64,000 nucleotides of DNA from an uncultured Erythrobacter sp. (lineage in GTDB: Bacteria > Pseudomonadota > Alphaproteobacteria > Sphingomonadales > Sphingomonadaceae). The stretch is from the NCBI RefSeq assembly GCF_958304185.1, contig NZ_OY284433.1, forward strand, positions 992,001-1,056,000, given 5' to 3'. Both the position numbers and the translations under genes were made by a program. Within the stretch, counting starts at the first letter, position 1. Each line of letters starts with the position of its first letter. The notes under the pieces are model-generated. The model had not been told where the DNA came from, made no database searches, and saw only the letters and a program-made list of their open reading frames with translations. Of the stretch, positions 23,068 to 46,378 are shown piece after piece.

Positions 23068-23532
23068 ATGACCGAAACCGCTCCCAATGCCTCCGCTGGC
23101 AATCCGCTGGACCAGTTCCTGTGCTTTTCCGTCTATGCGGCAGGACTGGCATTCAACCGTGTCTACAAGCCGCTGCTCGATCCCTATGGCATCACTTATC
23201 CGCAATACATCGCATTGGTGGCGCTGAGCAGCCAGGCGGGTCAGACAGTCAGCGAGCTAGGAGACAAGCTGCACTTGGAATCAAACACGCTAACCCCGCT
23301 CATCAAGCGGCTTGAAGCGGCCGGGCTGGTTACCCGTACGCGGGACAAGCAAGACGAGCGGGTTGTCCGCCTGGGTCTGACATTGGCTGGCAGCAACCTT
23401 GCAAAGACTGCTCTGGGCTGTGTCCCGGCCGAAGTTCTCACGGCAACCGGGATGGACCAAGCGGCGCTGGAAAAGCTGAACGGCAATCTTGCTACGCTGG
23501 GCGCCGCGCTCCGCGATTCAGCGGGACGATAG
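23068..23532 (+). CDS. ohrR: MarR-family organic peroxide sensor repressor
   Basis: A 154-residue MarR-family winged-helix regulator (ATG at 23068; GTG at 23065 adds one residue). The N-terminal segment LDQFLCFSVYAAGLAFNR matches the OhrR redox site, with the sensing cysteine at about residue 19 and Tyr in YAA; oxidation of this Cys by organic peroxides releases the DNA in known OhrR. The winged helix follows: YIALVALSSQAGQTVSELGDKLHLESNTLTPLIKRLEAAGLVTRTRDKQDERVVR is the family pattern in outline, including the DxR wing. It faces the esterase-ohr operon. GAGG only two bases before the ATG, with TTATAT close upstream, suggests a very short leader. Confidence 0.9.
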   Translation: MTETAPNASAGNPLDQFLCFSVYAAGLAFNRVYKPLLDPYGITYPQYIALVALSSQAGQTVSELGDKLHLESNTLTPLIKRLEAAGLVTRTRDKQDERVVRLGLTLAGSNLAKTALGCVPAEVLTATGMDQAALEKLNGNLATLGAALRDSAGR

Positions 23533-23635
23533 GGTCGATCGGCCGTCCGCCCGCCGTGACGCTCCGCAATGGCAGTCCTCACACGCTCGATATTCAGGTG
23601 ATTGCTTAGCCGCACCATAACATCTGCAACCATCA

Positions 23636-24301
23636 CTATCCCTCGTCGGCGAAGGTCACCTGCGCTGCTTCGGTGACGTGCACCCAGACCTGATAGTATC
23701 CCATTTCATGCTGCCCGCGCTTGTTGGCGACCGGGCTGGGTGAGCCGATCGGGGAATCGATCCACTGCCTGCGCACATCGCCCTCAACAATGATGCGCCG
23801 GCCGCTCAGCCGCTGCATCATCGTGAACATGTTGAGATCGGGCGGGCCGTCGGTGTAGCAGGCCTTGACGGTGATCTGCCCCTCGACCACGTCAGCCGCG
23901 CCGCACACCTGCGCACGGCGCAGCAGCGCTTGCAGCGCCTCCGGCTCGAACGCGATGGTGAGCGTGCCGAGCGTCGCATAATCCTGCCGGGAATTGACGA
24001 ACATCATGGTGCCCAGTTCGCCCTGAAAGCTCTGCCCTCCTCCGCGGATATCGAGCAGGAAGCGGCCGGGCTGGGCCTCGCCCGCGGCGGCAGAGAGTGC
24101 CATCGCCGTCGCCTCGCCCGGCGTGATGCAACCGGGTTCGCAATCGAGGAGTTCGGCGCGCACGGCTTTGAGCGGCAGGTCGGCGTCGTCGAGGTTGGTG
24201 CGAAACGAGGATAGCTGCGCCGCGCTCACAGCGTCTTCGGCCACGGCGGCAAAGCCTGGCAACGGCACGACAACCGCCAAGATCAATGCCGCGCGCAGCA
24301 C
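23636..24301 (-). CDS. Putative secreted protein of unknown function
   Basis: About 221 residues from the GTG at 24301, chosen because AGGAAA lies 7-8 bases upstream and a signal peptide begins directly (MLRAALILAVVVPLPGFAAVA, Met for GTG); an ATG at 24370 would add 23 residues with no ribosome binding site. The mature protein has a Cys pair in DCEPGCITPGEA, another Cys pair (QVCGAA and KACYTD), and a strand-rich pattern. No catalytic motif is visible. It is monocistronic, separated from accA by about 130 bases. Periplasmic or extracellular location is inferred. Family not recognised. Confidence 0.65.
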   Translation of the reverse strand: MLRAALILAVVVPLPGFAAVAEDAVSAAQLSSFRTNLDDADLPLKAVRAELLDCEPGCITPGEATAMALSAAAGEAQPGRFLLDIRGGGQSFQGELGTMMFVNSRQDYATLGTLTIAFEPEALQALLRRAQVCGAADVVEGQITVKACYTDGPPDLNMFTMMQRLSGRRIIVEGDVRRQWIDSPIGSPSPVANKRGQHEMGYYQVWVHVTEAAQVTFADEG

Positions 24302-24433
24302 GCCGGTTTTCCTAACTTCCTGAATTGCGACGCATGATGGGCGGCATTTGTGGCTATGGGCCATGAACATGGAGTGAATCCGAGAGTCCTGTGGCTTCAG
24401 CAGGGTTCCAGCCCGCGCCGAAACGCCCGCCGC

Positions 24434-25360
24434 CTAGCCCAAGCGCAGGAAGAATTCCTCGCGCTCGCGCCGCAGTTCGGCGGGCGTGAGCGCCGAGAGC
24501 GCGTTCAGTTCTGCGCGCAGGGCAAGCGTTAGTCGCTTCACGGTCTCTGCAGCATCCCGGTGCGCGCCGCCTTTGGGTTCATAGACGATACGGTGGATCA
24601 CGCCCAATTTGAGCAGGTCACCCGCCGTGACCCGCATCGCCTCGGCAGCGGTCGCAGCCTGCGCGGCGCTGCGCCACAAGATTGAGGCGCAGCCTTCAGG
24701 CGAGATCACCGAATAGACCGCGTGCTCCATCATCAGCACCCGGTTCGCCGCCGCCAGCGCAACCGCGCCGCCTGACCCGCCCTCGCCGATGATCACCGCG
24801 ATCAATGGCACGCCAAGCGCAAGGCACGCCTCAGTCGAGCGGGCGATGGCTTCCGCCTGTCCGCGCGCTTCGGCATCGACGCCAGGGAAGGCACCGGGGG
24901 TATCCACCAGCGTCACCACCGGCAGGCCGAAACGGTCGGCGAGTTCCATCAGCCGGATCGCCTTGCGATAGCCTTCGGGCCGCGCCATGCCGAAGTTGTG
25001 CTTCAGCCGCCCCGGCGTATCCTCGCCCTTCACATGGCCAATCACCACCACCTTGCGACCTTCGAACCGGGCAAAGCCGCCGATGATTGCCTGATCGTCC
25101 CCGAACACACGGTCACCCGCGATGGGCAGGAAGTCCTCGAACAGCCCCGCCACCAGCTTCTCGAACCGGGGGCGCTGGGGATGGCGGGCGACCAGCGTGC
25201 GCTGCCACGGGGTCAGCCGCGCATAGGTGTCCGCGAGCAGCTTGTCCGCCCGCTCGCGCAGCATCCGGGCTTCCTCGGTGCCTTCGGCATGGGCAGAAAG
25301 CTCCGCCACATGCTTGTCGAGCGCCTCGATCGGCTTTTCGAACGGCAGGTACTGGATCAT
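24434..25360 (-). CDS. accA: Acetyl-CoA carboxylase carboxyltransferase subunit alpha
   Basis: A 308-residue AccA, the half of the carboxyltransferase that transfers CO2 from carboxybiotin to acetyl-CoA to make malonyl-CoA. The family pattern is clear: N-terminal coiled region ([12 protein letters not shown]), then [31 protein letters not shown], the [27 protein letters not shown] region, [21 protein letters not shown], and [12 protein letters not shown] for the oxyanion hole. It lies 16 bases downstream of the malonyl-CoA reductase gene and is probably co-transcribed with it, so it would be made in step with the enzymes that consume malonyl-CoA. accB, accC and accD are not in the window. Confidence 0.95.
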
Positions 25361-25376
25361 CGCCCCGCGCAGCCCA

Positions 25377-28300
25377 TCACACCGTCATCGACATACCGCG
25401 ATAGATCCGCGCACGGTAGCGCGAGTCTTCCGCATCGGGCAGCGGCGCGCCGACGAGCAGCACGGCGCGAGCGAAACGGCGAACCTCTTCGAGATGCTCG
25501 TCGAGATCGCGCGGTTCTTCGGATTGCACCCGGCGGGTAAGGTTGATCTGGTTGACCGGCACATCATGCACCAAGCGCTCGTTCTCGACCGCCAGCGTGG
25601 CAGTGAAGGCGTGGAGCGTGGTCTTGATGAAGTTCGCCAGCGCGAAGGCCGGGGACTTGTCGCCCATCGGCACATCGGGCGAGGTCAGTACCAACTGGCA
25701 ATCATCATAGAGCGACGCCCGGCGCGAGACGCGGAAGTGGTGGGTGAGGTTGTCAGCCACGACGGTGCGGAATTCCTCCGGAGTGAGCGGATCGTCCTGC
25801 CCGAACAGCTTGCCGGGAAGCGCGGCGAAGGGCGTAGACAGGATCGTGGTCGGCTTGCCCCACTCGGTCAGCGCCTCATCCATCGCGGCTTCGATGTCGG
25901 TGGTCTTCACCAACGAGGTGAGCGAGGCGGCGGTGTCGGGATCAAGCTGCGCCTTGATCGCCTCGAAGCCCTCAGCGGTGCGGGTGATCAGCACCACGTT
26001 GGCGACATGGCAATCCTCGATGAAGGCACGCGCGGTTTCGGCGAGGTAATCGACGAGGTGTTCGCCGATGATCCACACGGTTTTGCCGCGCATCTGGTCG
26101 AGCCGCTCCTGCTTGGGGCTGCCGAACAGCTCGCGTTCGGTGGTCGAGCGTTCCACGGAAAGGCCGCCGGAGGGCATGAAGGTTTCGCCCGAAACGGCAC
26201 GGTCGGCGAGGAAGAACACGGTCGCCTGCGCCACATCATGCTCGGTCGGCATCTTGCCGAGATAGAGCTTGGACAGCACCCCGGTGCCGACCTTCTTGGC
26301 CTCCACCGCGATCTTGTCGGCGGGGAGGAAGGGCGTGTCTTCGGGCGGCACGCGCATCAGCCAATCGGCATCGGCCTCAGGCGTGGCCAGGCGATCATTC
26401 CATTCTGGCGCGTCGAGGAAGAGGCCCGCCTGCCGCAGCCGCCCGATCAGCGCGGCAGCGATGGTGGGGGTGAGCAGGTACTGATCCCAGGTGCAGGCCC
26501 CGTCGCCTTCCCGCGCGCAGGCCAGCGCCAACTCGCGCAATTCGCGCGGGTTGTTGGTGTCGTGGCTCATCTTGGTCGTGTCATTGCGGGCGAGCCGCGC
26601 CAGCACCGCCTCGACCCGCACCCCGCGCCGGATCGCCTTGATCGCGGCGGCGTGAACGGCGTTCAAACGCTTGTTTTCAAGGATCAGCTTGCCGCGCCGT
26701 TCGAACAGCCCAGGCTTGCCGCCGGTGCCGGACAGGCGGTCGCCATCGACCGGCCCCGGCGCAATCGCATTGAACTGCACCTCCGGCCCGAGATAGCGCG
26801 CCATGCTTTCCACCATCGCCCGCTGGCCTGCCTTGGACACGGCGTAATCCGCACGGTTCGGGTAGGCGACCGCGAGATACTTCTCCCCGCCGAAATAGGA
26901 CGAGACATTGAGGATGTAGCCCGAGCCCTGCGCCTTCATCAGCGGCGCGACGTGGTGCATCAGGAAGTAGTTCGACACGAGGTTCGCATCGAGCGTGTAG
27001 TTCCAGGCATCGACCCCCATGTCGACCACCATGTCCTCCGCGCCCGCGACACCTGCGTTGTTGATGAGGTAGTCGATCCGCCCGAAAGCTTTCAGCGTCG
27101 CATCGACCGCGCCCTTCAGGCTTTCAAAATTGCTGACATCGACATTGGCGAGGGTCTGGACCCGGCGTTCAACCCCGGCAAAACCGATATCCTCAAGCTC
27201 GCTGACGATCCGCGCGCGGGCCACCGCCAGCTCGCTTTCACGCCGGGCGACCATCATCACCTTGCCGCCCGCGAGCGCCAGCAGGCGTGCGACCTGTCCG
27301 CCGATCCCGGCCGAACCACCGGTAATCAGCGCGACCTTGCCGAGGTGCAGCCCGGTGATGTTCTCGGAGAAGCCCGGCATCGCCTTGCGCGCACCCGTCG
27401 CCTCGCCGATGTTCGACGGGACGTAGAGCGTGATCTCGCCGAGCTTGCTTTCCTTCAGCAGAATGCGCGCGGCGTGACCAGCGGTGAAGCGGATGTTCTC
27501 GGCCTCGGTGTTGGTGAAGCGGACGATCTGGTTGCCCCACTCCGCTTGGCGGCGACGCCCGTGCGCGGTGTCGATCTCACTCTCGTCGCGCCAGATGCGG
27601 ATCAGCTGTTCGGTCGCGGCGCGCAGGATGTGGCCGTAGATATCGCCCTTCCCGTCGCTTGCATGGCTGACGAATACGAAGCGCGGCGGTTGCAGCAAGT
27701 TGTCGTGGCGCTTCCAGTAACGGCTGAGCGTCCGCGCCAAGGCCATGTTGCCGGCGAGCTCGGCGTCCATCAGCGCCTCGACCACGCTGTCATCCGCCTC
27801 GGTGATCGCCCCGGCCAGCTCACCTGCGCTCAAAGCGGGCAGGAACAGCGCGCCGCTGACCGGCGTGCCGCCCTTGGTGTAATCCTCCAGCGCCTCTTCC
27901 ATCCCCGCCGGGTCTTTCCGGCTGAAACGGATGATGGCGAGCTTGTCACTGAGGCCGAGCGCCTTGCAGCGCTTCTCGGCAATGGCAACATCAGCCGCGC
28001 GCGGCAGGCCGAGGACGACCTCTGCCCCACACGCCAATTGCACTTGCGCAATCTCCAGCGCCTCTTCGAAATTGTCGCCCGCCGCGATCAGCACGGCAAG
28101 CCCGGTACCGTCCATCGAGCGCATTGTGGGGCGCGCCAGATAGGTCGAGCGCTGCTCCTTGCGCACGCTCATGCCGTGGGTGACTTCGAAATCGTGGCCG
28201 TTGTAGGCCGCGCTCTCGTCAGAGCCGAGGAAGACGCAAGTCGTGGCGATATCGGTCGGCGTGGGGAAGGTCTTGGCTTTGTCGCTCCCGCCGGTGGCGC

Positions 28301-29072
28301 GTTCTAGGCTCATCATGTCGAAGAATTGCGTGGCGGTAGTGCCCGCTTCGTCGCCGCGCGCGGAGTCCATTGCGGCGAAAACGTTGCGGATGCGCTCGCT
28401 CTCGATCGGGCCGGGGTAGACGAGGTTGACGCGGATGCCCTTGGGGCCGAGCTCCAGCGACAATTCGCGGCTCCACGCGTTCATGGCGGCCTTGGGAACG
28501 ACATAGGCGGCGCGCGCATAGTAAGGCGTGCGGCTGAAGATGGTCGAAACATTGATGATCGACCCGCCTTCAGGGATGTGCGGCGCGGCGGTACGCGCGA
28601 CATTCCAAGCGACGCCGAAGATATTGCGCAGCGCACCGCTGACGGTTTCGCTATCGGTGCTGCCCTGCTTTTGCAGCGCCGCGAGTTCGTCCGCAGACAA
28701 CGGCAGGTTCTCAATCGGCTGCTTCGGTCCGGCGCTTCCGGCGTTGTTGACCAGAATGTCGATCCGTCCGAACTTCGCTACCACCTCGGCAATCGCCGCG
28801 CGGACCGAGGCGATGTCCCCGCCGTCCAGCGCCACCGTGGCGAGCCGTGCAGGATCGGCGCCGGTGGCCTTGATCAGCGCCTCGGCAGCTGCCTTGGTGC
28901 GGTCGGGCGTGCGGCCCGTCATCACGACGGTTGCGCCTTCTGCAAGGTAGTGCGTGACGATATGCCCGCCCAGATTGCCAGCCGCGCCGGTGACGACGGC
29001 GATCTTGCCAGCGAGGCGGCCCGTGGTGGTTTCAGCAGGCGCAGCTTTGGTCTTCGGCTTGGACGCGGCCAT
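25377..29072 (-). CDS. mcr: Bifunctional malonyl-CoA reductase
   Basis: A 1231-residue fusion with two short-chain dehydrogenase halves, the Chloroflexus-type malonyl-CoA reductase (about 1220 residues there). The C-terminal half reduces malonyl-CoA to malonate semialdehyde, the N-terminal half reduces that to 3-hydroxypropionate, both with NADPH. The first SDR has TGAAGNLG at residues 28-35 and a Ser176, Tyr190, Lys194 set (NVSTIFS, YVVPK). The second has TGGSAGIG near residue 586 and Ser725, Tyr743, Lys747 ([14 protein letters not shown]). Start at 29072 ([13 protein letters not shown]) gives a flexible basic lead. It follows propionyl-CoA synthase by 104 bases and precedes accA by 16. Confidence 0.93.
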
Positions 29073-29176
29073 AGCACTCTCCTCACAAAATTATAGTGCA
29101 AGCGCCGTTGGCTTGCCGGATCGTTCAATCTCTGGGGAGGAGAGCGAAGAACGTTTCAATTATCGCAACGCACGCG

Positions 29177-32100
29177 TCAAGGTTTCGGTTCCCCGGTTCC
29201 TTGCGCGGCCCACGCTTCGAGCAGCGCATCGCGGCTTCTGAGGCCCATTTCGGGCAGCGCGTGGTTGACGACATAGGTCGAGCCGGTGTGCCGGTTGTCC
29301 CACATCGCTTGGTGCGCTTCGGGCAACCCGTCCCACGGCACAACCTCAGGCTCGGTCACTTCGAGCAACCCTGCGGCGATCATGTCGTTCATCCGCGCCA
29401 CTTCGTAGGCATTGCACAGGTGCGTGCCGAGGATCCTGGCGGTCGGCATCAGGACTTTACGCTGACGCGTCCAGACCTGCGGGGCGTAGAACGTGAAGCG
29501 GCACCCAGTGAGGTCTTCGGCAAAGATCACCCGCCCGGTGAAGGGCTTCACCAGTGAGGTCGAGATGCCGAGCGTGTCTTGCCCGGCGCGTTCGAACACC
29601 AGATCGGGGCTGCCGCGCGGATTGTCAGGCGAGCGCAGAATCTTGCCCACCGCCGAGCCGAAGGGCTTCATCACCCGGTCCTGATAGTCGCGCACCGCGG
29701 CCTTGAAGACCTCGATATCGGCCTTGGCATCGGGCAGGCGCGGCATGGTGTCGGGCCAGTAGAAATTGGCCCCCTCGCGCCGCCGGATCGCTTCGAGGCT
29801 GACAATGCCTTCGATGGCGTCCTCGAGTCCGAGCGATTGCAGGAATTCGCGCTGGCCATCGGTGTTGGTGGCGATGACAGAGCGCGCATTGAAACGGCGC
29901 GCGGCCTCGATCATTTCGAGCCCGGTTTCGTCGAGCAATTCGCTCGACCCCGGCCCGTAGAAGATCAGCACCGCCTCGCCGCCCCTAAGGGCTGCGCGCC
30001 GGAGCATTTCTTCGGGCGTGGCCGTCCCCGGCTTGCCCATGAAGCTGAAGTGGTAACCGGACGAAGCGCCGTAGAAGGCCAGCGTGCCGCCTTCGGCCAG
30101 CAGTTGGAACGAGCGCGGGAACGCCGTCTCGCCCGCATGGCTGACCACGTAATCGGCGAGCTTGCCGCCGTTGAGCGCCTTGAACTCCTCGACAAGCGGA
30201 ACGCCTGCGGCTTCCCAAGCGATGGCTTCGGCCTTGTCTTCCGGCACCACCGAAAAGAGGCCCGCAAAGCGCGCATCCTTGCGGTTGATCGCCCCGACTG
30301 CGCCTTGCACCTGCGTGATGAAGCTAGAGCGTTCCTCGGAGGACACCAGCCCCGTCACCTGCAAGCCCGTGCGCACCGAGGAGCGCAGCGCATCAAGCCC
30401 CGTGCCCGTCGCCGCGCCTTCGACGAACAGCGTCCGCCCCGGCGCGATCTGCAAGGTCGTGAACAGGCAGCGCGCAATCGTGCCGAGGTTCAGCACATAG
30501 CTTCCGGCCTGCTCCAGCGTCAGATCGGGCGGAACCTTGTGCATCTGCGGCGCCTGCACGGTCAGGAACTGCGCATGGCTGCCAGTCTCGGTCTCGTAGC
30601 CCTGGATCGAGAAGTCCGCATACATCGGATCATTGCCGACCAGCGGGCTAAGGAGGTCATTGGTGCCCGAATAGACCGTCACCAGATCTCCGACCTTGAT
30701 CCGCCCCTGCGCCCGCGTTTCCGAGCCAAGCGCCGCGACCAGCGCGATGCCGCCCGATCCAGTGATCTGAACGTCTTCTTCATGGCTATCGAAGGGCGAA
30801 ACCGGGATGCCGGTCAGCGCCCAGATGTCGTTAAAGTTGACCTCGCTGGTCAGCATATAAAGCAGCGCTTCGTTGGGCGCGGGCTCTGGCACCGCCACGA
30901 TCAGCTCCTTCTCATGGCTCGCCGGCGGGCCGAAGCGGGGCTGGCCCGTGTCAGGATCGCGGGCGATGCCGAAGGCATATTGGTGACGCGGGATCGGGGT
31001 CACGCCGGGATAAAACGGCGCTCCCACAGGAAGCAGATCGCCTGATGCTTCCAACGCCTGAGCACGCATTTCGTGCTCGGCATCAATCCACACGCCATCG
31101 CGCCGCACCGGAAGCGGGGGCGCAATCTTGTCCATAAACTGCTTAATACCGGTCTTGCCGCCTTCGGGGTCAACGATGGCTTCCGAGAACAGCGTGGCTT
31201 CACGCGCTGTGCCAGCCGTGATGCCCTGTTCGAGCCCCACGCGTACCGCTTCCAGCGCCCGCGCGCCAGCCTTGCCCCGCCCGGCCCAGGCAAGCTGGCG
31301 CAGGATGCGCTGGAGGAAATCGTCCTCTAGCACCGCATCAAGGCTAACATCCGCTGCAGCTTCCCAGCGCGCCGCGGCCGCCTGCCGTTCGGCAAAGGCC
31401 TGGCCGAGCGCAGAATCCGCGCCGTGCTTCACGAACTCGCGCACCGCCGCATGGGCGGCCGAGAGCGCATCATCCGCACCGCTCACCAGCTCATCGACCA
31501 CGCCGACCGCGTGCGCCGCATCGGCATCAATGCTCCGCCCACCAAGGATCAGGTCAAGCGCATCGCGCACGCCCTCTGCCCCGCGCCGGTCGAGCAGCAG
31601 GCGCGGCAGGCGCTGGGTGCCGCCGTATCCGGGGAGCAGGCGCAGGCGGATTTCGGGCTGGCCGAACCGCGCGGTCGGTTCGGCGATGCGGTAATGGCAC
31701 GCCAGCGCGAACTCCATGCCGCCGCCCAGCGCCACGCCCTGAACGGCCGCGACGCAGGGCTTGCCCATCTGCTCAATCGTGCGGAAGGCGAGGTGGGCGT
31801 TGTTGGGCAGCACCATCGCTTCTTCAACCGAGTGGATTTCCTCCAGCATCTGGCGGATATCTGCGCCCGCCACGAAGGAGCTGGTGCCTTCGCCGGTGAA
31901 GACCACCGCAACCACATTCTCGTCCCGCGCCAGCGTCGACGTGACCAGCACCAGCTCGTCAATCGCGCGCTCGTTGAGCGCATTGACCGGCGGGTTGGTG
32001 ACGGTGACGGTCGCGACCTGCTTGCCGGGTGCGACCGTGTTGTACTGCACGAGGAAATAGCGGTGCCGGTCGAACAGCGCCTGTTCGTCCGAGAGACGCT

Positions 32101-34762
32101 GCTTGCGCTGCCAATCGCCGATGACCTTGCGCAATTCGTCCAGCGATTCCGGGTTACGCAGCGTCGTAACGTCGCCGACATCCTCGCCCACCACCAGCGC
32201 GCGGACCATGCGGCGCATATACTTGCCCGAGCGGGTTTCGGGGAATTGCGAGACCTCGATAAAGTCCGCCGGCACTGCGACCGCGCCCTTTTCAGTGCGC
32301 ACAAGGTCGAACAACCGGCGCTTGTCTTCGATGGTGAGCTTTCGCCCCGCAACCGGCACCACGAAGGCCAGCGGGGTCAGCCCCTTCTCGCGGTGCGGCG
32401 CGCCGACCACCAGCACGTTGCCGACCGGCGAGTCCGGCGCGAGCGCCTTGTCGCGCAGCACTGCGCCTTCGATTTCCTCGGTTCCCATGCGGTGGCCGGA
32501 GACGTTGATGACGTCGTCCGATCGGCCATGCAGCGAGAACGAGCCGTCGTCATGCTGGATCGCGAAGTCGCCTTGGGTATAAGCCCAGGCGCCCTTCCAG
32601 CGCTTCCAGTAGCCATCTTCCCACCGGGCGGCATCACCGCGCCAATCGGGATCGACGCGGCCATCGGACACCCTGAAGCCTTCGATATCGCCCCAGATCG
32701 TGCGGGCGAGATAGGGATAGGGCGCGGCGATGACGATTTCGCCCTTCTCTCCCATGTCCGCCCGCCGCCACGGCACGCCGCCTTCATCTGCGCGGGTGAA
32801 GGGCGCTTCGGTCGGCGCGGCCGCATCGGCATCTTCAACCCAAACATCGCCCACGATCCATGGCAGCGGATAGGCGTGGGCATCGGGGCGGAGCGGGAAA
32901 TCCTCGTTGCCGAACATATGCGTCCACGCGATCCCGCCGTGTTCGGTCGCCCAGTAGCTATTAATGTAGCGCGGGGTCACGTGCTCCATCCCGAAGGCCT
33001 GCACAGACGGGCTGACGGGTTCGGCGCAGAAAGTCGCGACGCGCAGCCCGGTCATGTCATAGCGTTCAAGTTCGGCGAGGTTCGCCGGATCGGACATGAT
33101 CGCCTTAAGGAAAGTCACGCCCGCCTTGAAGATCGTGACGTTGTGCCGCTCAATCATCGAGGCGAACCGCCCCGCGTGTGGGAACACCGGCGAGCCTTCT
33201 GAGACAAGGCTCGTCACCCGCGTCATCAGCGGCGCACAGATCAGGTAGCTCTGACCCGTGATCCAGCCCGGATCGGCGACCACGAACAGCGTATCGCCGG
33301 GGCGTGCATCGAAGCTGGCCGCCATCGTCTCGGCCACACCTGCGGCATAGCCGTGGGAATGGACGATCCCCTTGGGCTTGCCGGTGCTGCCCGAGGTGTA
33401 GATGAAGAACATCGGATAATCGGCATCGACCGGCAGCGGCTTGGATGAGGCCCAGATTGCGCGGACGAAATCGCTGCCCTCCAGCGCCAGCAAGTCAGCG
33501 GCGGTCTCCACCGCAAAGCCAGCGCCCCTCGCCTTCTCCAGCACCGTCCCCAGCGCGGCATCGGTCAGTTCATGGCTCCAGCGGTCACGCTCCTCGCGCC
33601 AGATGACATCCGGCTGGTGCGTGTGGCGGCACACGATCACGGCTTCGACACGCGGCGGCAAAGTCACGAGGCTGGAGGCAATCGCGATCCGCACGCGGGC
33701 AGCGTCAGCCGTGCTGATCCGGCCTTCCGCGCCCAGATTGATCAACGCCCGGCCCACGCCGCGCATCACGTCCGAACGGTCGACGGTAATCTCGCCGCTC
33801 AGCGCCTCGCGCACGGTATCAACGATGGTGGCCGCATCGGCGGCGGGCAAACCCATGTCGAGGGCGGAAAGGATCGCCAGCGCCGTCGTCACCGGCACGA
33901 AATTGTCAAGCGCCGGGTCGGTGTAGGCGTTCTTGAACGCCGCGACCTGCGCGTTGCGATAGGAACCATCCGAGGTGACAATCACCCGCGCCCCGGTATC
34001 AGCGATGCGGTCCGACAGGGTCTTGTCAGAGAAGCCCCCGAAAACCGCCGTATAGACCACGCCCATGCGCTTGGCAGCTTCGGTCCAGTAAATCTGCGGC
34101 ACGATGCTCGGCATATTGAGCGCCATGCGGTCGCCCGGCTTCAGGCCCAGCGCCTCCAGCGCGACGGCGCATTTCGCCACTTCGAGCAGCAATTGCTTGC
34201 GACTGACGCTGAAGCAATCAATCGGCGCTCCCTTGCCGCCGAGCGCTGACATGTCCCAGCGGTCACCTTCGAAAATCAGCGCGGCTTCATCGCCATGCCC
34301 GGCGAGCACGTGGCGATCGAGTTCGGAGAAAGCGGCATTGGTGCGCCCGCCGACAAACCAGCGCCAGTGCGGGGCGTTCGACCCGTCAAAGTCGGCCGTC
34401 CACGGAGTGAAGTCAGCGGGCAGATCGGGGCTGACGGGCGCGGCGGAAGCGGCATCCCAACCGCCCCAATGGCCATCTTCACCCTTGGCGATCCACGCGC
34501 CCGAAGGGCCAACATCGCCCACGAACCAATGCATGTTGCGGGCCGCAATATCCCCATGGAAGGCGCCAGGATCAGCCAGCGCCGCAGCACGCATCGCCTC
34601 CCAGTCGGCACGTGTGCGGACAGGATTGGTCAGCGCCAAGGGCGCATTCGCAAGCAAGGTATTCACAGAAATGACGCAGTCCCCCGATTCGCAAAAAATC
34701 CGCAGTGCGCGATCCCCCACGCTCGGCGATAATGCAGCAAAATTACACAAGACAGCCGTCAT
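29177..34762 (-). CDS. pcs: Trifunctional propionyl-CoA synthase
   Basis: About 1861 residues from the ATG at 34762; TTG at 34768 and GTG at 34666 are alternatives, the GTG giving VNTLLANAPLALTNP, a more ordinary synthetase N-terminus. No good ribosome binding site fits any of them. Domain order is that of propionyl-CoA synthase: an acyl-CoA synthetase (residues ~45-870, ATP loop TSGSTGKPKG near 456, catalytic Lys in PETRSGKY near 847), an enoyl-CoA hydratase (~925-1180, catalytic Glu in GGGMEFA near 1017 and in QPEIRLR near 1037), and an MDR-type enoyl-CoA reductase (~1385-1861, VEGAATGTGLD). It turns 3-hydroxypropionate into propionyl-CoA, holding acryloyl-CoA inside the enzyme in characterised homologues. 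Confidence 0.95.
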   Translation of the reverse strand: MTAVLCNFAALSPSVGDRALRIFCESGDCVISVNTLLANAPLALTNPVRTRADWEAMRAAALADPGAFHGDIAARNMHWFVGDVGPSGAWIAKGEDGHWGGWDAASAAPVSPDLPADFTPWTADFDGSNAPHWRWFVGGRTNAAFSELDRHVLAGHGDEAALIFEGDRWDMSALGGKGAPIDCFSVSRKQLLLEVAKCAVALEALGLKPGDRMALNMPSIVPQIYWTEAAKRMGVVYTAVFGGFSDKTLSDRIADTGARVIVTSDGSYRNAQVAAFKNAYTDPALDNFVPVTTALAILSALDMGLPAADAATIVDTVREALSGEITVDRSDVMRGVGRALINLGAEGRISTADAARVRIAIASSLVTLPPRVEAVIVCRHTHQPDVIWREERDRWSHELTDAALGTVLEKARGAGFAVETAADLLALEGSDFVRAIWASSKPLPVDADYPMFFIYTSGSTGKPKGIVHSHGYAAGVAETMAASFDARPGDTLFVVADPGWITGQSYLICAPLMTRVTSLVSEGSPVFPHAGRFASMIERHNVTIFKAGVTFLKAIMSDPANLAELERYDMTGLRVATFCAEPVSPSVQAFGMEHVTPRYINSYWATEHGGIAWTHMFGNEDFPLRPDAHAYPLPWIVGDVWVEDADAAAPTEAPFTRADEGGVPWRRADMGEKGEIVIAAPYPYLARTIWGDIEGFRVSDGRVDPDWRGDAARWEDGYWKRWKGAWAYTQGDFAIQHDDGSFSLHGRSDDVINVSGHRMGTEEIEGAVLRDKALAPDSPVGNVLVVGAPHREKGLTPLAFVVPVAGRKLTIEDKRRLFDLVRTEKGAVAVPADFIEVSQFPETRSGKYMRRMVRALVVGEDVGDVTTLRNPESLDELRKVIGDWQRKQRLSDEQALFDRHRYFLVQYNTVAPGKQVATVTVTNPPVNALNERAIDELVLVTSTLARDENVVAVVFTGEGTSSFVAGADIRQMLEEIHSVEEAMVLPNNAHLAFRTIEQMGKPCVAAVQGVALGGGMEFALACHYRIAEPTARFGQPEIRLRLLPGYGGTQRLPRLLLDRRGAEGVRDALDLILGGRSIDADAAHAVGVVDELVSGADDALSAAHAAVREFVKHGADSALGQAFAERQAAAARWEAAADVSLDAVLEDDFLQRILRQLAWAGRGKAGARALEAVRVGLEQGITAGTAREATLFSEAIVDPEGGKTGIKQFMDKIAPPLPVRRDGVWIDAEHEMRAQALEASGDLLPVGAPFYPGVTPIPRHQYAFGIARDPDTGQPRFGPPASHEKELIVAVPEPAPNEALLYMLTSEVNFNDIWALTGIPVSPFDSHEEDVQITGSGGIALVAALGSETRAQGRIKVGDLVTVYSGTNDLLSPLVGNDPMYADFSIQGYETETGSHAQFLTVQAPQMHKVPPDLTLEQAGSYVLNLGTIARCLFTTLQIAPGRTLFVEGAATGTGLDALRSSVRTGLQVTGLVSSEERSSFITQVQGAVGAINRKDARFAGLFSVVPEDKAEAIAWEAAGVPLVEEFKALNGGKLADYVVSHAGETAFPRSFQLLAEGGTLAFYGASSGYHFSFMGKPGTATPEEMLRRAALRGGEAVLIFYGPGSSELLDETGLEMIEAARRFNARSVIATNTDGQREFLQSLGLEDAIEGIVSLEAIRRREGANFYWPDTMPRLPDAKADIEVFKAAVRDYQDRVMKPFGSAVGKILRSPDNPRGSPDLVFERAGQDTLGISTSLVKPFTGRVIFAEDLTGCRFTFYAPQVWTRQRKVLMPTARILGTHLCNAYEVARMNDMIAAGLLEVTEPEVVPWDGLPEAHQAMWDNRHTGSTYVVNHALPEMGLRSRDALLEAWAAQGTGEPKP

Positions 34763-34961
34763 GAGCAAGAATATGCCACGATAGCCACCTATCCCGATAA
34801 CGCCGCGTATCGAAAACAGTTCCGCACCCTTTGGCGCGATATTCTCTCGTTTGATCCTTGGGCACCGGCGCTTGGCGTTAGCCGTAACGGTTTATCAATC
34901 ACGTTTGGTCTATCAGCCGTCCTAAGTGCTGCGCAATCCAGCCCCCAAACAAGGACGAGCG

Positions 34962-37154
34962 ATGCCACTTGGCTTTCTCAAATCCGGGCGTGAGCCCAAG
35001 CGCTCCGTGCCAGACGGGCAGACCCCGGTCGTGGAACCTCGCCCCGACCGTGCCATTGTGCTGGGTGAAGTCGAAGAACTCGGCATCGGGATGTTCTGGG
35101 CGACCGACGCGGAAGGCCATCTGAGCTTCCTGTCGCAGCGCGCTCTGGTCGATCTCGGCAACGATAGCGAAACGATGATCGGCAAGCCGCTGATTCAGGT
35201 GTTTCATGATGTCGACGAGGAAGACGGCGGCCCGTCGCAGCGTAGCCTTGCCTTCAAGCTCAAGGCCCACTCCAAGCTCGACGAGCAGATCGTCGCTGTG
35301 CCCAACGGGCGCGGTGCGACGCGGTGGTGGCGGCTCAACGGACGGCCGCTGACCGACGCGGCCGGCACCTTCAAGGGCTACCGCGGCAGCGCGGTCGATA
35401 TCTCAGCGCAATATGCCTACGAAACGCAGGTCGCGCGGCAATCGCAAGTGGACGAGCTGACCGGGCTCGCCAACCGCCGCAAGCTGAACGAGCGGCTGAC
35501 TGCCATGTTGTCCGCATTTCGGGTAAGCCAGCGCAGCTGCGCGCTGATGATGCTCGATCTCGACCGCTTCAAGCAGGTCAACGACACCATGGGCCATCCC
35601 GCGGGCGACGAATTGCTCAAGCAGGTGGCCCAGCGCCTTTCCTCCATCGTCAAGGACCACGGCGAGGTTGGCCGGCTGGGCGGCGACGAATTTCAGGTGC
35701 TGCTGCCCGACATGGATGACCGGGGCACTTTGGGCGAGCTGGCCAATCGCATCGTCCAGTCGATCTCGCAGCCCTATCAGATCAATGGCCGCCGGGCGAT
35801 CATCGGCACGTCGGTCGGCATCGCGATTGCGCCCTATGACGGGGTCGAGACTGACGAGCTGACCCGTGCGGCCGACATGGCGCTGTATTCCGCCAAGGAA
35901 GCCCGCGGCGGCACCTTCTGTTTCTTCACCAGCGAATTGCGCGACGCCGCCTCCAAGACCGCGCTGTTGGGCGAACGGCTGCGCGATGCAGTGGATCGCG
36001 GAGAGCTGAAACTTGCCTATCAGCCGCTGGTCGATCCGATCACTAACGAAGTGAAGTGCTTCGAAGCGCTGCTGCGCTGGCACGACGAGGATGAAGGCGA
36101 CATCAGCCCCGCGCAGTTCATTCCCGTCGCCGAGAACGACGATCTGATCATCCGCATCGGCGAAGTCGCGCTGAAGCAGGCGTGCATGGACGCGCTCGCC
36201 TGGCCGGAGACCATCAAGGTTGCGGTCAACGTGTCGGCCAAGCAGTTCGTCCGCCCTGGTTATCGCAAGGCGGTGGCCGCGGCGCTGCAAGCGTCGGGCC
36301 TGCCGCCGGGCCGGCTTGAGCTGGAGATCACTGAAAGCGTTTTCGTCGGCGATCTGGAGACGGTCGATGCGATCTTCCGCGATCTGAAGAAGCTGGGCGT
36401 GCGCCTGGCGCTCGATGATTTCGGCACCGGCTATTCATCGCTCGGTTACCTCAAGCACGGACATTTCAACAAGATCAAGATCGACCAGAGCTTCGTGCGC
36501 GGCTGCACCGAGAATGGTGACACCAACCCTGCGATCATCACCGCCATCGTCGCGCTCGCAAAGGCGCTCGGCATGGAGACCGTGGCCGAAGGCGTCGAGG
36601 CGATGGACGAGCTGGAGCTGGTCAAGGCGCGCGGCGCAGATCTGGTACAAGGCTACATTTTCTCGCGTCCGATCACGCAGGATCAGGTGCTGGCGCAGTT
36701 TGCCGAAGGATCGGGTATGTTCCGCCCCAGCGGCCCGCCGCGCCACCGCGCTGAACGGATCACCATCTTCCGCAAGGTCGGGCTGATTCACGAGGATCAC
36801 TATTACGACGTGATCCTGCGCAACCTGTCCAAGACCGGCGCGCGGATTACCGGGCTGGCCGGGGTGCCGGTCGGGACCGACGTGGTGCTCGATCTCGGTC
36901 ACGGGCAGCTGGTGGTGAGCAAGGTGGTCAACGCGACCGAGAACAGCCAGGGTCTGAAGTTCGAAACCTCGATGATCAGCGACGGCAGCGGCGGGTTCAT
37001 GACGCGGCACCGCATCTCGCCCTATTCACTGGCCGAAGCGGGGATCCCGCTGGCGGCGCTCGGCGCAGGGGCTTTCCCGCTTGCCAAGTGGCGCGAGGCG
37101 AACAAGACCGTGCCCAAGTTCGTGCAACTGGAACTCAGCGCGCCGGGAGCCTGA
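34962..37154 (+). CDS. PAS-GGDEF-EAL-PilZ cyclic di-GMP protein
   Basis: A 730-residue cytoplasmic protein; the ATG at 34962 has AAGGA six bases upstream. Domains in order: PAS (~30-150, ending GYRGSAVDIS), GGDEF (~160-330, motif GGDEF intact at 240-244, so diguanylate cyclase activity is possible), EAL (~345-590, EALLRW at 368, NVSAKQF, ELEITES, DDFGTGYSSL, KIDQSF, EGVE, all expected metal and base residues present, so phosphodiesterase activity is likely) and PilZ (~585-700, RHRAER and NLSKTG matching RxxxR and (D/N)xSxxG). No inhibitory RxxD site is seen before GGDEF. It is divergent from pcs, about 200 bases apart, with no evident functional link. Confidence 0.93.
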   Translation: MPLGFLKSGREPKRSVPDGQTPVVEPRPDRAIVLGEVEELGIGMFWATDAEGHLSFLSQRALVDLGNDSETMIGKPLIQVFHDVDEEDGGPSQRSLAFKLKAHSKLDEQIVAVPNGRGATRWWRLNGRPLTDAAGTFKGYRGSAVDISAQYAYETQVARQSQVDELTGLANRRKLNERLTAMLSAFRVSQRSCALMMLDLDRFKQVNDTMGHPAGDELLKQVAQRLSSIVKDHGEVGRLGGDEFQVLLPDMDDRGTLGELANRIVQSISQPYQINGRRAIIGTSVGIAIAPYDGVETDELTRAADMALYSAKEARGGTFCFFTSELRDAASKTALLGERLRDAVDRGELKLAYQPLVDPITNEVKCFEALLRWHDEDEGDISPAQFIPVAENDDLIIRIGEVALKQACMDALAWPETIKVAVNVSAKQFVRPGYRKAVAAALQASGLPPGRLELEITESVFVGDLETVDAIFRDLKKLGVRLALDDFGTGYSSLGYLKHGHFNKIKIDQSFVRGCTENGDTNPAIITAIVALAKALGMETVAEGVEAMDELELVKARGADLVQGYIFSRPITQDQVLAQFAEGSGMFRPSGPPRHRAERITIFRKVGLIHEDHYYDVILRNLSKTGARITGLAGVPVGTDVVLDLGHGQLVVSKVVNATENSQGLKFETSMISDGSGGFMTRHRISPYSLAEAGIPLAALGAGAFPLAKWREANKTVPKFVQLELSAPGA

Positions 37155-42352: not shown

Positions 42353-43180
42353 ATGCAGCAGACTGGCACCATCTATCTCGTCGGCGCGGGGCCGGGTCCG
42401 GTGGACCTCCTGACCTTGCGCGCGGTCCGCCTGATCGAGCGGGCGGAAGTGATCGTCCATGACGGGCTGATCGGCCCGGATATTCTCGGCCTGGCGCGGC
42501 CCGATGCGCGGCTGATCTCGGTCGCCAAGCAGCGCGCGCGCCACACCTTGCCGCAGGATGACATCAACGCCCTGCTGGTGCGCGAGGCGCAGGCCGGGCG
42601 GGATGTCGTGCGGCTGAAAGGCGGCGATCCGTTCATCTTCGGGCGCGGCGGCGAGGAAGCCGAAACCGCCCGCGCAGCAGGTGTCCGCGTCGAAGTCGTC
42701 CCCGGCATTTCTGCTGCCAACGGCGCGGCGGCGGCGAGCGGCATTGCGCTCACCCACCGTGACGCCTCCAGCATCGTCAGCTTCGTCGCGGGCCAATGCA
42801 AGGGCCTGGCGGAACAGGACTGGTCGGGCCTCGCGGGCAAGGGCCGCACGCTGGTGATCTACATGGGCGTCTCCACCGCGCCGCAGATCGCCGAGAAGCT
42901 GATGGCTGATGGTCTCGCGCCTTCGATGCCGGTCGCCGTGATCGAGAACGCCGCGCGCCCGGAAATGCGGGTGCTGCGCGGGTTGCTGGCAGGGTTGCCC
43001 GATCTGGTGGAGCGGGAAGCGGTGCAAAGCCCCGCGCTGATCGTGATCGGCGAGGTTACGGCGCGCAACATCAGCCCCGGCCGTCATCCCAGCGAAAGCT
43101 GGGACCTAGAGCGGCAAGCGCAGTTCCTAGAGGCCCTAGGCCCCAGCTTCCGCTGGGGTGACGGAGATATCCAGCCATGA
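42353..43180 (+). CDS. cobA: Uroporphyrinogen-III C-methyltransferase with repeat-derived tail
   Basis: A 275-residue SUMT that twice methylates uroporphyrinogen III with S-adenosylmethionine, giving precorrin-2 for siroheme (and B12). Family motifs: LVGAGPGPVDLLTLRA at the N-terminus (SAM site), GDPFIFGRGGEEAE and PGISAANGAAAASGI. The core ends about residue 245 (VTARNI). The remaining ~30 residues are encoded by a palindromic repeat element (43081-43164), which explains why it is longer than the usual ~255. It heads the sulfite-reduction operon, whose CysI needs siroheme. The ATGA overlap couples it to the next gene. Confidence 0.92.
   Translation: MQQTGTIYLVGAGPGPVDLLTLRAVRLIERAEVIVHDGLIGPDILGLARPDARLISVAKQRARHTLPQDDINALLVREAQAGRDVVRLKGGDPFIFGRGGEEAETARAAGVRVEVVPGISAANGAAAASGIALTHRDASSIVSFVAGQCKGLAEQDWSGLAGKGRTLVIYMGVSTAPQIAEKLMADGLAPSMPVAVIENAARPEMRVLRGLLAGLPDLVEREAVQSPALIVIGEVTARNISPGRHPSESWDLERQAQFLEALGPSFRWGDGDIQP
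43081..43164. repeat. Palindromic repeat forming cobA C-terminus
   Basis: An 84-base element with long imperfect inverted arms: CCGTCATCCCAGCG-aa-AGCTGGGACC at the left and GGccCCAGCT-tc-CGCTGGGGTGACGG at the right. It is in frame with cobA, adding 28 codons, and its right end also supplies part of the ribosome binding site of the next gene. It resembles known intergenic palindromes of sphingomonads in layout, from memory. Confidence 0.75.
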
Positions 43181-43476
43181 AAATCCTCACCGGCAATGAC
43201 CTGCGCTCGGGCGCGGTGACCTGGTGGAACGGCACCGGCTGGTCGCTGTTCGTCGACGATGCCGTCGATGTTGGCGACGACGCCGAGGAAATTCTCGCCC
43301 GCGAGGAAGCCGCGCGCCGGGTCAACGTGCCTTACGCCATCGAGGCGACCATCGATGCAGGCGGCCACGTGCGCCCCGCGCACATCAAGGACCGCGTGCG
43401 CGCGCTCGGCCCGACGGTGCGGCGCGACCTTGCCGTGCCGACTGCCAACAAGACCGGCTGGGACTGGGTGATCTGA
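43177..43476 (+). CDS. DUF2849 domain protein, sulfite reduction operon
   Basis: A 99-residue protein of the DUF2849 group, recognised by its position and the pattern MKILTGNDLRSGAVTWW...GWSLFVDDA, DVGDDAEEILAREEA, VNVPYAIEATIDAGGHVRPAHIKDRVRALGPTVR. Length matches the family (about 100). It overlaps cobA (ATGA) and the cysI start (TGATG), so it is fully embedded in the operon, and in alphaproteobacteria it is regularly found there. It presumably helps sulfite reductase maturation or electron supply, which is unproven. Confidence 0.85.
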   Translation: MKILTGNDLRSGAVTWWNGTGWSLFVDDAVDVGDDAEEILAREEAARRVNVPYAIEATIDAGGHVRPAHIKDRVRALGPTVRRDLAVPTANKTGWDWVI

Positions 43477-45155
43477 TGTATAAATATGACCAATACGACC
43501 AGGCGATGGTCGATGCCCGCGTTGAGGAATTCCGCGATCAGGCCCGCCGCCGCCTCGAAGGCAAGCTGACCGAGGATCAGTTCAAGCCGCTGCGGCTGAT
43601 GAACGGGCTGTACTTGCAGCTCCACGCCTACATGCTGCGCGTCGCCATCCCCTATGGCACGCTCGATGCGCGCCAGATGGAGGCGCTGGCCGACATCGCG
43701 GAGATGTATGACCGCGGCTATGGCCACTTCACCACGCGTCAGAACATCCAGTACAACTGGATCAAGCTGGAAGACGCCGCCGATATCCTCGCGGATCTGT
43801 CGAAGGTCGAGATGCACGCCATCCAGACCAGCGGCAATTGCATCCGCAACATCTCCGCGGATCACTTCGCGGGCGCTGCCGCCGACGAGGTGGTGGACCC
43901 CCGCCCCTATGCCGAGTTGATGCGCCAGTGGTCGAGCTTCCACCCGGAGTTCACCTACCTGCCGCGCAAGTTCAAGATTGCGGTGATCGGCTCCGAAATC
44001 GACCGCGCGGCGATGCGCTTGCACGATATCGGCATCCGCATCGTCAAGCGGGATGGCGCAATCGGCGCGCAGTTCTATGCCGGCGGCGGCATGGGCCGCA
44101 CCCCGATGATTGCCCCGCTGATCCGCGACTTCGTGCCGCTCGACCAGCTGATCACCTATGCCGAGGCGTGCCTGCGGGTCTACAACCGCTACGGTCGGCG
44201 CGACAACAAGTACAAGGCGCGGATCAAGATCCTCGTCCATGAACTGGGCGCGGCGGAATACACCCGGCAGGTCGAGGAAGAATTTGCCCATATGCTGAGC
44301 GTTGGGGTGGAGCCGCCGCGCGAAGAATTGGCGCGGATTGCGGCGCATTTCGCACTCCCCGAACCTCTCCGCCGTCCCGGCCCCCGAGCCGGGACCCCGC
44401 TCACTCCCGAGCGGATCAAGGACATCGGGGTCCCGGGTCAAGCCCGGGACGGGGGGTTCGAGGCTTGGGCATTGAACAACACACACCCCCACCGTCACCC
44501 CGACTACGTCTCCGCTGTCATCAGCCTCAAGCCCGCAGGCGGCATCCCCGGCGATGCGACCGCCGACCAGATGCGCGTCGTCGCCAAGCTGGCGCGCGAC
44601 TACAGCTTTGACGAGCTGCGGGTGATGCACACGCAGAACCTGCTGCTCCCCCATGTCGCCATCGCCGATCTGCACGCTGTGTGGAGCGCACTCGACGCGG
44701 CGGGCATGGGCTCGCCGAACATGGACACGATCGAGGACATCATCGCCTGCCCGGGGCTCGACTACTGCTCGCTCGCCAACGCCCGCTCGATCCCGCTCGC
44801 CCAGCGCATCTCGGAGCGCTTCGCCGCTTCGGGTCGCACCGAAGTGGTCGGCGAATTGAAGCTGAAGATCTCCGGCTGCATCAACGCCTGCGGGCACCAC
44901 CACGCGGGCCACATCGGCATCCTCGGCGTCGACAAGAAGGGCAAGGAGAACTTCCAGCTCTCGCTCGGCGGGTCGGAGGCCGAAGACGTCAGCCTCGCCA
45001 AGATCACCGGCCCCGGCTTTGACGAGGACGGCGTGATTGCCGCGGTCGAGAAGGTCACGGATGTTTATCTCGCCACCCGCGCGGATGGCGAGCGCTTCCT
45101 CGATACCTACCGCCGTATCGGCATGGAGCCGTTCAAGGAGGCGCTTTATGGCTAA
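43476..45155 (+). CDS. cysI: Siroheme sulfite reductase, hemoprotein type, with in-frame repeat insertion
   Basis: About 559 residues from the ATG at 43476 (MYKYDQYDQA), overlapping the upstream stop. Reduces sulfite to sulfide with six electrons. Two ferredoxin-like lobes are visible; the siroheme-side motif FTTRQNIQYNWI is near residue 90, and the 4Fe-4S/siroheme cysteines are Cys-x5-Cys (ACPGLDYCSLAN) and Cys-x3-Cys (SGCINACGHH). Between residues ~299 and ~326 an 81-base palindromic element is inserted in frame (RRPGPRAGTPLTPERIKDIG...), lying in the linker between the lobes, so the fold is likely tolerated. A nitrite reductase alternative exists for this family, but cysH in the operon favours sulfite. 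Confidence 0.92.
   Translation: MYKYDQYDQAMVDARVEEFRDQARRRLEGKLTEDQFKPLRLMNGLYLQLHAYMLRVAIPYGTLDARQMEALADIAEMYDRGYGHFTTRQNIQYNWIKLEDAADILADLSKVEMHAIQTSGNCIRNISADHFAGAAADEVVDPRPYAELMRQWSSFHPEFTYLPRKFKIAVIGSEIDRAAMRLHDIGIRIVKRDGAIGAQFYAGGGMGRTPMIAPLIRDFVPLDQLITYAEACLRVYNRYGRRDNKYKARIKILVHELGAAEYTRQVEEEFAHMLSVGVEPPREELARIAAHFALPEPLRRPGPRAGTPLTPERIKDIGVPGQARDGGFEAWALNNTHPHRHPDYVSAVISLKPAGGIPGDATADQMRVVAKLARDYSFDELRVMHTQNLLLPHVAIADLHAVWSALDAAGMGSPNMDTIEDIIACPGLDYCSLANARSIPLAQRISERFAASGRTEVVGELKLKISGCINACGHHHAGHIGILGVDKKGKENFQLSLGGSEAEDVSLAKITGPGFDEDGVIAAVEKVTDVYLATRADGERFLDTYRRIGMEPFKEALYG
44372..44452. repeat. Palindromic element inserted in frame in cysI
   Basis: 81 bases bounded by CCGTCCCGG (44372-44380) and CCGGGACGG (44444-44452), with inner repeats. 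Its right part (GGTCCCGGGTCAAGCCCGGGA) is shared with the intergenic element at 46383-46462. The length is a multiple of three and no stop is created, so the gene continues through it, adding 27 residues in the inter-lobe linker. Confidence 0.8.
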
Positions 45156-45603
45156 AGACATCGGCACCAGCCCCGACGAAGTGCAATTCCGCTTCCGTGA
45201 CGATGAGCCCGTCGATCACGGTACTGTGACAGTCGACGCCTGCTGCGACCAGACCAACGCCGCCGCCGTCCGGATCGAACCGGGCGACGATGCGCGGCTG
45301 CTATTGCCCTTCCTTGATCGCCTCGCGCTGGTCGAAGTCAACTTCCCGAGCTTTGGCGACGGGCGTGGCTATTCGGCAGCGCGCATCCTGCGCGAGGCCG
45401 GCTATACCGGCGAATTGCGCGCCGTGGGTCAGGTGTTGATCGACCAGCTCAGCCATATGCGCCGCTGCGGGTTCGACAGTTTCGCCCCCGACAAGCGCCT
45501 CGATGAAGACGACGCCGCACGTGCCTTTGCGACGTGGGACAACGTGTATCAGCGCGCGGCCGATGCGCGCCGGACCATTGCGGACAAGCGCCATGAAGCC
45601 TGA
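45148..45603 (+). CDS. DUF934 protein, sulfite reductase partner
   Basis: A 151-residue DUF934 protein; the ATG at 45148 has AAGGAG a few bases upstream and overlaps the cysI end by 8 bases. Typical family elements: a lead with DDEPVD, LLPFLDRLALVEVNFPSFGDGRGYSAARILRE, GYTGELRAVGQVLIDQL, MRRCGFDSF. It is always near cysI and cysH in proteobacteria and is thought to be needed for sulfite reduction, perhaps as an electron-transfer or assembly factor; the exact mechanism is not established. Its end overlaps cysH by 11 bases. Confidence 0.88.
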   Translation: MAKDIGTSPDEVQFRFRDDEPVDHGTVTVDACCDQTNAAAVRIEPGDDARLLLPFLDRLALVEVNFPSFGDGRGYSAARILREAGYTGELRAVGQVLIDQLSHMRRCGFDSFAPDKRLDEDDAARAFATWDNVYQRAADARRTIADKRHEA

Positions 45604-46378
45604 CGTTTCCATCGCCAAGATCGGGATGATCGCGCACACGCCCGACATCCTCAACCTCGCCCCCCGCTTTACCGAGCATGATGCGGTGCGCCTCAACAAT
45701 ATGTTCAGGGGCAGCAGCACGCACGAAATGCTCGCGAGCGTGATCCGTGACGGGCTCGCGGGCGACCTCGCGGTGGTCTCCAGTTTCGGCGCGGAGAGCG
45801 CGGTGTTGCTGCACCTGATCGCGAGCGTCGATCCGTCGGTGCCGGTGCTGTTCCTCGATACGGGCAAGCATTTCCCTGAAACACTGGAATATCGCGATTT
45901 ACTGGTGGAGCGGCTCGGCCTCAATCTCGTGGTGCTGACCCCCGACGCTGAAGAGCTCGCCAAGAAGGACGAGACCGGCCTCAGGTGGTCTTACGATCCC
46001 GATGGCTGTTGCGAGATCCGCAAGGTGCGCCCGCTCGAAAAGGCGATGGCGCAGTACGACGCCAGCTTCACGGGTCGCAAGGCGTTCCAGGCCGCGACCC
46101 GCGCCAACCTGCCGCGCTTTGAGGTGGACACCTCGGACGCGCAGGGGCGGCTCAAGATCAACCCGCTGATCGATTGGGACGCGGGCCAGATCGAAGGCTA
46201 CTTCATCCAGCACGATCTCCCCCGCCACCCGATGATCGCGCAAGGCTATCCTTCGATCGGCTGCTCGCCCTGCACCTCGCAGGTCGCGCCCGGCGAAGAC
46301 CCGCGCTCGGGCCGGTGGAAGGGCTGGGACAAGACCGAATGCGGCATCCACAAGCCGGGCGAGGAGCCGTTTCTTTAG
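45593..46378 (+). CDS. cysH: Assimilatory (phospho)adenylylsulfate reductase
   Basis: A 261-residue reductase making sulfite from adenylylsulfate with thioredoxin. The double cysteine pair Cys139-Cys140 (DGCCEIRK) and Cys224-x2-Cys227 (GCSPCTSQV) would bind a 4Fe-4S cluster, the mark of APS rather than PAPS reductases. The nucleophile is Cys250 in ECGIH. SSFGAESAVLLHL is the nucleotide-binding (PP-loop) region. ATG at 45593 lies inside the DUF934 gene, the last of five coupled genes. It therefore probably uses APS directly, needing no APS kinase. Confidence 0.92.
   Translation: MKPDVSIAKIGMIAHTPDILNLAPRFTEHDAVRLNNMFRGSSTHEMLASVIRDGLAGDLAVVSSFGAESAVLLHLIASVDPSVPVLFLDTGKHFPETLEYRDLLVERLGLNLVVLTPDAEELAKKDETGLRWSYDPDGCCEIRKVRPLEKAMAQYDASFTGRKAFQAATRANLPRFEVDTSDAQGRLKINPLIDWDAGQIEGYFIQHDLPRHPMIAQGYPSIGCSPCTSQVAPGEDPRSGRWKGWDKTECGIHKPGEEPFL

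Follow-up and report, generated by a model that had tools for sequence, protein, structure and literature searches.

The first steps of the 3-hydroxypropionate bicycle of Chloroflexus and Roseiflexus are well established: acetyl-CoA carboxylase forms malonyl-CoA, malonyl-CoA reductase (MCR) converts it into 3-hydroxypropionate, and propionyl-CoA synthase (PCS) yields propionyl-CoA. The same first steps are encoded in a 64,000-nucleotide stretch of DNA from an uncultured Erythrobacter sp. (RefSeq assembly GCF_958304185.1, contig NZ_OY284433.1, positions 992,001 to 1,056,000; hereafter the window), in which pcs, mcr and accA, the gene for the carboxyltransferase alpha subunit of acetyl-CoA carboxylase, lie next to one another on the minus strand. 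From the comparison described below, it is clear that accA is a regular member of this unit in several genera, and that in some genomes it is the only accA left. The enzymes and the pathway are themselves of known kinds, described before from the same bacterial group. The MCR of Porphyrobacter dokdonensis (6k8s and 6k8v) is the same bifunctional enzyme, nearly identical in the C-terminal alignment with 6k8s, and 6eqo, which we take to be the PCS of Erythrobacter sp. NAP1, is the same three-activity PCS as that of the window. No mention of a linked accA was found in the papers and structures on these enzymes, whose gene neighbourhoods were not looked at.

A related gene order is that of a Roseiflexus metagenome-assembled genome (MAG; locus L151), in which the linkage is fuller (accD-accA-mcr-pcs-accC) and accA stands with accD before mcr, whereas in the window accA lacks accD and is placed after mcr. 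The linkage of carboxylase genes as such is therefore not unique. In Chloroflexus aurantiacus, the locus tags in the accessible part of the source place accA/accD, mcr and pcs apart (PMC3150298). Blastomonas, Sandarakinorhabdus, Halieaceae and others share with the window a pcs that immediately precedes mcr in the same orientation, and no accA was found in the stretch seen where the contig continues past mcr. In the open-licence literature, as far as its text was available and with subscription papers outside the search, we came upon no description of a proteobacterial accA linked to pcs-mcr, and an Erythrobacter comparison (PMC4919336) contained no pathway terms. As far as open papers show, what is new is that a second accA regularly accompanies the unit, that this is found again in several genera, and that in some genomes this copy has assumed the role of the housekeeping one.

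The initial annotation had named a three-activity PCS, a bifunctional MCR and AccA, adjacent on one strand with gaps of 104 bp (pcs-mcr) and 16 bp (mcr-accA); the open reading frames indeed lie where it put them, with intact domains, and domain, equivalog and structure matches support all three identities. PCS carries the AMP-binding, ECH_1 and ADH_zinc_N domains in a single chain (Pfam/NCBIfam search), that is, the CoA ligase, enoyl-CoA hydratase and zinc-type reductase that define a propionyl-CoA synthase, and aligns with 6eqo over query residues 52-1860 (2861 bits). MCR (1231 aa) gives a family match with two short-chain dehydrogenase/reductase stretches, matches the two halves of the P. 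dokdonensis enzyme (1422 bits for 6k8s and 1139 bits for 6k8v), and is covered over query residues 16-1231 by the full-length bifunctional enzyme 8hi4. Its closest relatives among the matches listed are Porphyrobacter and Erythrobacter records with 92-96% identity, which most likely places the window in that group. In the Roseiflexus enzyme, residues Ser731, Arg746, Tyr749, Lys753, Arg785, Leu795 and Arg799 have been mutated, according to the part of that study available to us (PMC10470521). Their counterparts in the window MCR, read from an ungapped stretch of the alignment, are S725, R740, Y743, K747, R779, L789 and R793; all seven are invariant in 13 aligned sequences. The operon AccA (308 aa) exceeds the equivalog cut-offs of PRK05724.1 (426 bits, cut-off 357) and TIGR00513 (373, cut-off 319), and matches solved AccA structures including 8uxz.

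To see how widely this arrangement occurs, we have used a family sample of 298 genomes and, as a second source, the 80 named loci among the matches listed. MCR is present in 30 of the 298 family genomes. In 28 of these 30 pcs lies directly upstream of mcr, and in the other two (G231 and G022) the contig ends there. Nine have accA directly after mcr (the window genome G000, G260, G256, G030, G284, G113, G173, G219 and G022), while the contig of G250 stops inside mcr and its downstream side is uninformative. At least 15 of the 80 loci also carry accA directly after mcr, one of them being the G256 contig again; they come from Porphyrobacter, E. donghaensis, E. colymbi, Novosphingobium sediminis, other Novosphingobium, Sphingomonas psychrolutea and MAGs. 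The attachment of accA, which had been singled out from the window alone, is thus a regular feature found in at least 23 distinct genomes, a recurrence over several genera that the initial annotation had overlooked. The spacing is tight throughout: counted from the stop of mcr, the codon that aligns with Met1 of the window AccA lies at −7 to 49 bp in every one of the 23 genomes, although in some this codon is not a start codon and the true start is a few bases away, and in 5 of the 23 the mcr stop overlaps a GTG or TTG by 4 bp. In Glacieibacterium frigidum (G072/L162), an accA 2 kb from mcr proved to be of the housekeeping type and was not counted. In one contig of a Porphyrobacter MAG (L125), the position after mcr that accA takes in relatives is occupied by an integrase-like frame (2625-3679, label from reading), and the visible 1 kb shows no accA. 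A further locus, titled as a Klebsiella pneumoniae MAG (L146), has pcs-mcr about 51-61% identical to those of the window; its title is probably a mislabel.

The window genome (3.29 Mb, 5 contigs) holds two accA, 64% identical, a point also overlooked before. Its housekeeping copy sits between XerD-like and M48-protease-like genes (labels read from translations), a site common to five same-genus genomes without mcr. Both copies are under similar constraint, with a median omega of 0.107 (operon accA) and 0.112 (housekeeping accA), mcr being at 0.073 (28 pairs each from 8 sequences; of the nine Porphyrobacter-type loci all but L117 were used). A specialised operon AccA is unsupported, since just one residue difference passes the 85% rule (R54 versus K), and the shorter AccA N-terminus occurs in the housekeeping copies of G173 and G284 too. 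As for accD, there is one above-cut-off match per genome in 14 of 14 genomes, and it does not lie beside pcs-mcr-accA. The proposal that the attached accA ties malonyl-CoA supply to its use therefore stands as far as regular membership goes, while a dedicated carboxylase would be too strong a claim, because accD is at another site in all 14.

Searched at E 1e-60, the 23 genomes fall into 16 with two accA and 7 with the operon copy only. Of the latter, G030, G113 and G219 are 99-100% complete, G256 and G022 are 82% and 67% complete, and G308 and G309 make up the rest. The old site itself can be recognized: in G173 and G284 trmB-like and M48-like genes flank the housekeeping accA, and in G030, G113 and G219 the Rieske-type, trmB-like, M48-like and mutT-like neighbours are all in place, the matched parts of trmB and M48 being only about 3, 78 and 12 bases apart, respectively. 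An accA search of these trmB-M48 stretches gave nothing better than E = 1. With no other accA in these three genomes, the operon copy must therefore serve lipid synthesis there, which is indirect but strong sequence evidence that the operon AccA would be a working AccA. This replacement of a housekeeping gene had likewise gone unnoticed.

In a tree of 61 rows the operon and housekeeping accA separate, with the operon copies of G284 and G173 at an unresolved base. Operon accA arises by two changes on the best tree and by one change in 66% of bootstraps, and constraining it to one clade gives p = 0.30 in the approximately unbiased test; a single origin is compatible with these values, although not proven. 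The operon accA of Sphingomonas psychrolutea groups with those of Novosphingobium and Porphyrobacter (100/96), whereas its housekeeping copy is not part of the Novosphingobium-Erythrobacter clade (100/99), and these conflicting placements point to a transfer of the unit. General horizontal transfer is unsupported: in 120 pairs from 16 genomes, the correlation of sequence identities is 0.95 between MCR and operon AccA, as compared with 0.91 for MCR and housekeeping AccA and 0.91 for the two AccA, and the distances otherwise fit common descent.

In addition to the unit itself, we have checked the genome for phototrophy and for an outlet for propionyl-CoA, both of which the initial annotation had suggested seeking. 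Reaction-centre genes are present (C4:189148-190805), as are methylmalonyl-CoA mutase (MCM; C1:559022-560551) and a carboxyltransferase of the propionyl-CoA carboxylase (PCC) type (C1:562243-563688), the last label being inferred from its score class and nearness to MCM. The reaction-centre L/M family PF00124 occurs in 28 of the 30 MCR genomes, the exceptions being G022 (67% complete) and G190 (88%), versus 27 of the 268 without MCR (Fisher p 8e-22), and by genus in 10 of 11 versus 17 of 85 (p 7e-6), both p-values being inflated because related genomes are counted. Among near-complete genomes the figures are 27 of 27 with MCR and 27 of 251 without. MCM is found in 29 of the 30 MCR genomes, and the PCC-type carboxyltransferase in 16 of the 18 examined, the two others being G219 and the incomplete G256. 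Also in the window, on the minus strand (49624-53343), a cobalamin riboswitch (53155-53343) precedes genes for a TonB receptor (51079-53037) and a periplasmic binding protein (49624-50613); these probably serve uptake of the B12 that the mutase would need. A role of the unit as a substitute for the glyoxylate shunt in acetate assimilation is weakened by the presence in 45 of 48 genomes of PF00463, the isocitrate lyase family, whose matches also include relatives such as PrpB.

Taken together, these results make it fairly probable that pcs-mcr-accA forms an operon encoding the first half of the 3-hydroxypropionate bicycle, accessory in an aerobic anoxygenic phototroph, with accA co-expressed with mcr. 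Acetyl-CoA carboxylase would supply malonyl-CoA, MCR would reduce it with NADPH to 3-hydroxypropionate, PCS would use ATP and NADPH to form propionyl-CoA, and PCC together with the B12-dependent mutase, both encoded on the chromosome, would take the latter on to succinyl-CoA. Light-derived ATP and reductant would pay for this, so that CO2 would be co-assimilated with organic carbon and reductant spent, short of full autotrophy. The operon AccA would pair with the shared AccD, AccB and AccC and raise or time the alpha subunit alongside MCR, malonyl-CoA then being made when it is consumed; it would be interchangeable with the housekeeping AccA, which it may have replaced in one lineage. We favour this operon model because the enzymes are intact, pcs stands upstream of mcr, accA is tightly spaced and as constrained as its housekeeping counterpart, the housekeeping accA has been lost in some genomes, PF00124, MCM and PCC accompany MCR, and the bicycle genes of Porphyrobacter sp. 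ULC335 are up-regulated by day in the available part of that report (PMC10674011). Several observations weigh against it. In 19 of the 30 family MCR genomes no accA was seen near mcr in the stretch seen, and the pathway therefore does not need a linked accA; accD lies elsewhere, and the phototrophy statistics are swollen by kinship. No PpsR-type (TGT-N12-ACA) or FnrL-type site was found before pcs in 9 loci. For phototrophs of cyanobacterial blooms, the part of the source at hand infers the bicycle from markers and reports no propionyl-CoA carboxylase gene (PMC11089705). Finally, a genome search of G219 found neither MCM nor the PCC type. This genome has adjacent prpB-prpC-prpD (L243 3632-7262), of which prpB and prpC are above their cut-offs and prpD, with 894 bits, is below its cut-off of 950, and its propionyl-CoA probably leaves through the methylcitrate cycle.

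The main rival to the operon model is that accA is a passenger: a neighbour of pcs-mcr at the time when the unit arose or was moved, it would have stayed on as a functional but redundant copy, chance could remove either of the two copies, and supply and use would not be specially coupled. The near equivalence of the two copies in residues and constraint speaks for it, as does the loss of either one (housekeeping in G030, G113 and G219, operon in L125, where it is not seen in the visible 1 kb), and accD, accB and accC did not accompany accA. A mere passenger would, however, fit poorly with the retention of both copies in 16 of the 23 genomes, with tight and sometimes overlapping spacing across distant genera, and with Roseiflexus having its own accD-accA linkage to mcr-pcs, and we consider it rather unlikely. 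The unit might instead serve mainly to bring 3-hydroxypropionate or related C3 acids from outside the cell into metabolism by way of PCS, with a minor part for MCR: free 3-hydroxypropionate is an established PCS substrate, and a reductive route for its use is known from Rhodobacter sphaeroides. The presence of mcr after pcs wherever the contig allows (28 of the 30) and of an accA pointing to synthesis from malonyl-CoA make such a role improbable. Least probable of all, and by our estimate very doubtful, is that the genes belong to a complete autotrophic bicycle. There is a candidate gene for every step of the first cycle, PCC and MCM included, but Porphyrobacter sp. ULC335 has key bicycle enzymes and no full carbon fixation pathway, according to the accessible part of its description (PMC10674011).

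While the pcs frame bears out the extent given to the unit, up to 34762, the ATG at that position is probably not the true pcs start, because the frame above pcs is stopped in 4 of 9 aligned Porphyrobacter-type loci (L068, L115, L122 and L124), a promoter-like pair straddles the ATG, and homology to 6eqo begins only at residue 52. This pair, found by eye, consists of TTGCTC (34768-34763), a 17 bp spacer and TAATTT (34745-34740), with TTGC conserved in 7 and TAATTT in 6 of the 9 loci; an automatic sigma-70 scan of 23500-36000 gave 0 promoters versus 1.6 expected from shuffles, which counts against it. The same scan gave 7 terminator-like sites versus 8.6 expected, not above chance. The coding start is likely ATT 34672 or GTG 34666. 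A G-rich ribosome-binding stretch is followed by an aligned codon that is ATG in 3 of the 9 loci (L114, L117 and L118) and ATT in 6, including the window at 34672, and pcs may thus use an AUU start codon (34664-34680, minus strand).

Table 1. Features of the pcs-mcr-accA unit, in window coordinates.
Feature	Position	Strand	Evidence
accA, second copy, AccA carboxyltransferase alpha subunit	24434..25360	-	NCBIfam equivalog; two accA in genome; adjacency in at least 23 genomes
mcr, bifunctional malonyl-CoA reductase	25377..29072	-	PDB 6k8s, 6k8v, 8hi4; catalytic residues kept in 13/13
pcs, propionyl-CoA synthase, open frame	29177..34768	-	Pfam/NCBIfam domains; PDB 6eqo; start alignment
Promoter-like pair TTGCTC-17-TAATTT before pcs, by eye	34740..34768	-	Alignment of 9 loci; absent from automatic scan

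Elsewhere in the window, a GGDEF-EAL gene (34926-37154, plus strand) diverges from pcs, and the same family is found at that place in G260. Genes for a tetrapyrrole methylase, a nitrite/sulfite reductase and a 3′-phosphoadenosine-5′-phosphosulfate reductase stand in a row on the plus strand (42353-46378), an ordinary sulfate assimilation cluster.

The compact pcs-mcr-accA unit could be a ready part for 3-hydroxypropionate or propionyl-CoA production, and the genomes in which a pathway copy stands in for an essential lipid gene amount to a natural complementation experiment. Tentatively, one sphingomonad phototroph lineage may have handed its accA over to the pcs-mcr operon and deleted the housekeeping copy, so that lipids and CO2 co-assimilation would both depend on a single AccA that follows phototrophy, with the outlet in G219 rewired from PCC/MCM to the methylcitrate cycle. 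If true, G219 would have a natural route from acetyl-CoA and CO2 to pyruvate without the B12-dependent mutase. The CO2 uptake of aerobic anoxygenic phototrophs that have no complete fixation cycle is poorly explained; since mcr goes so closely with reaction-centre genes, the idea that light pays for the co-assimilation of CO2 can be put to the test in the cultured Erythrobacter donghaensis, E. colymbi and Sphingomonas psychrolutea. In these phototrophs the unit would tie the supply of malonyl-CoA to a partial 3-hydroxypropionate pathway through a conserved genetic linkage.

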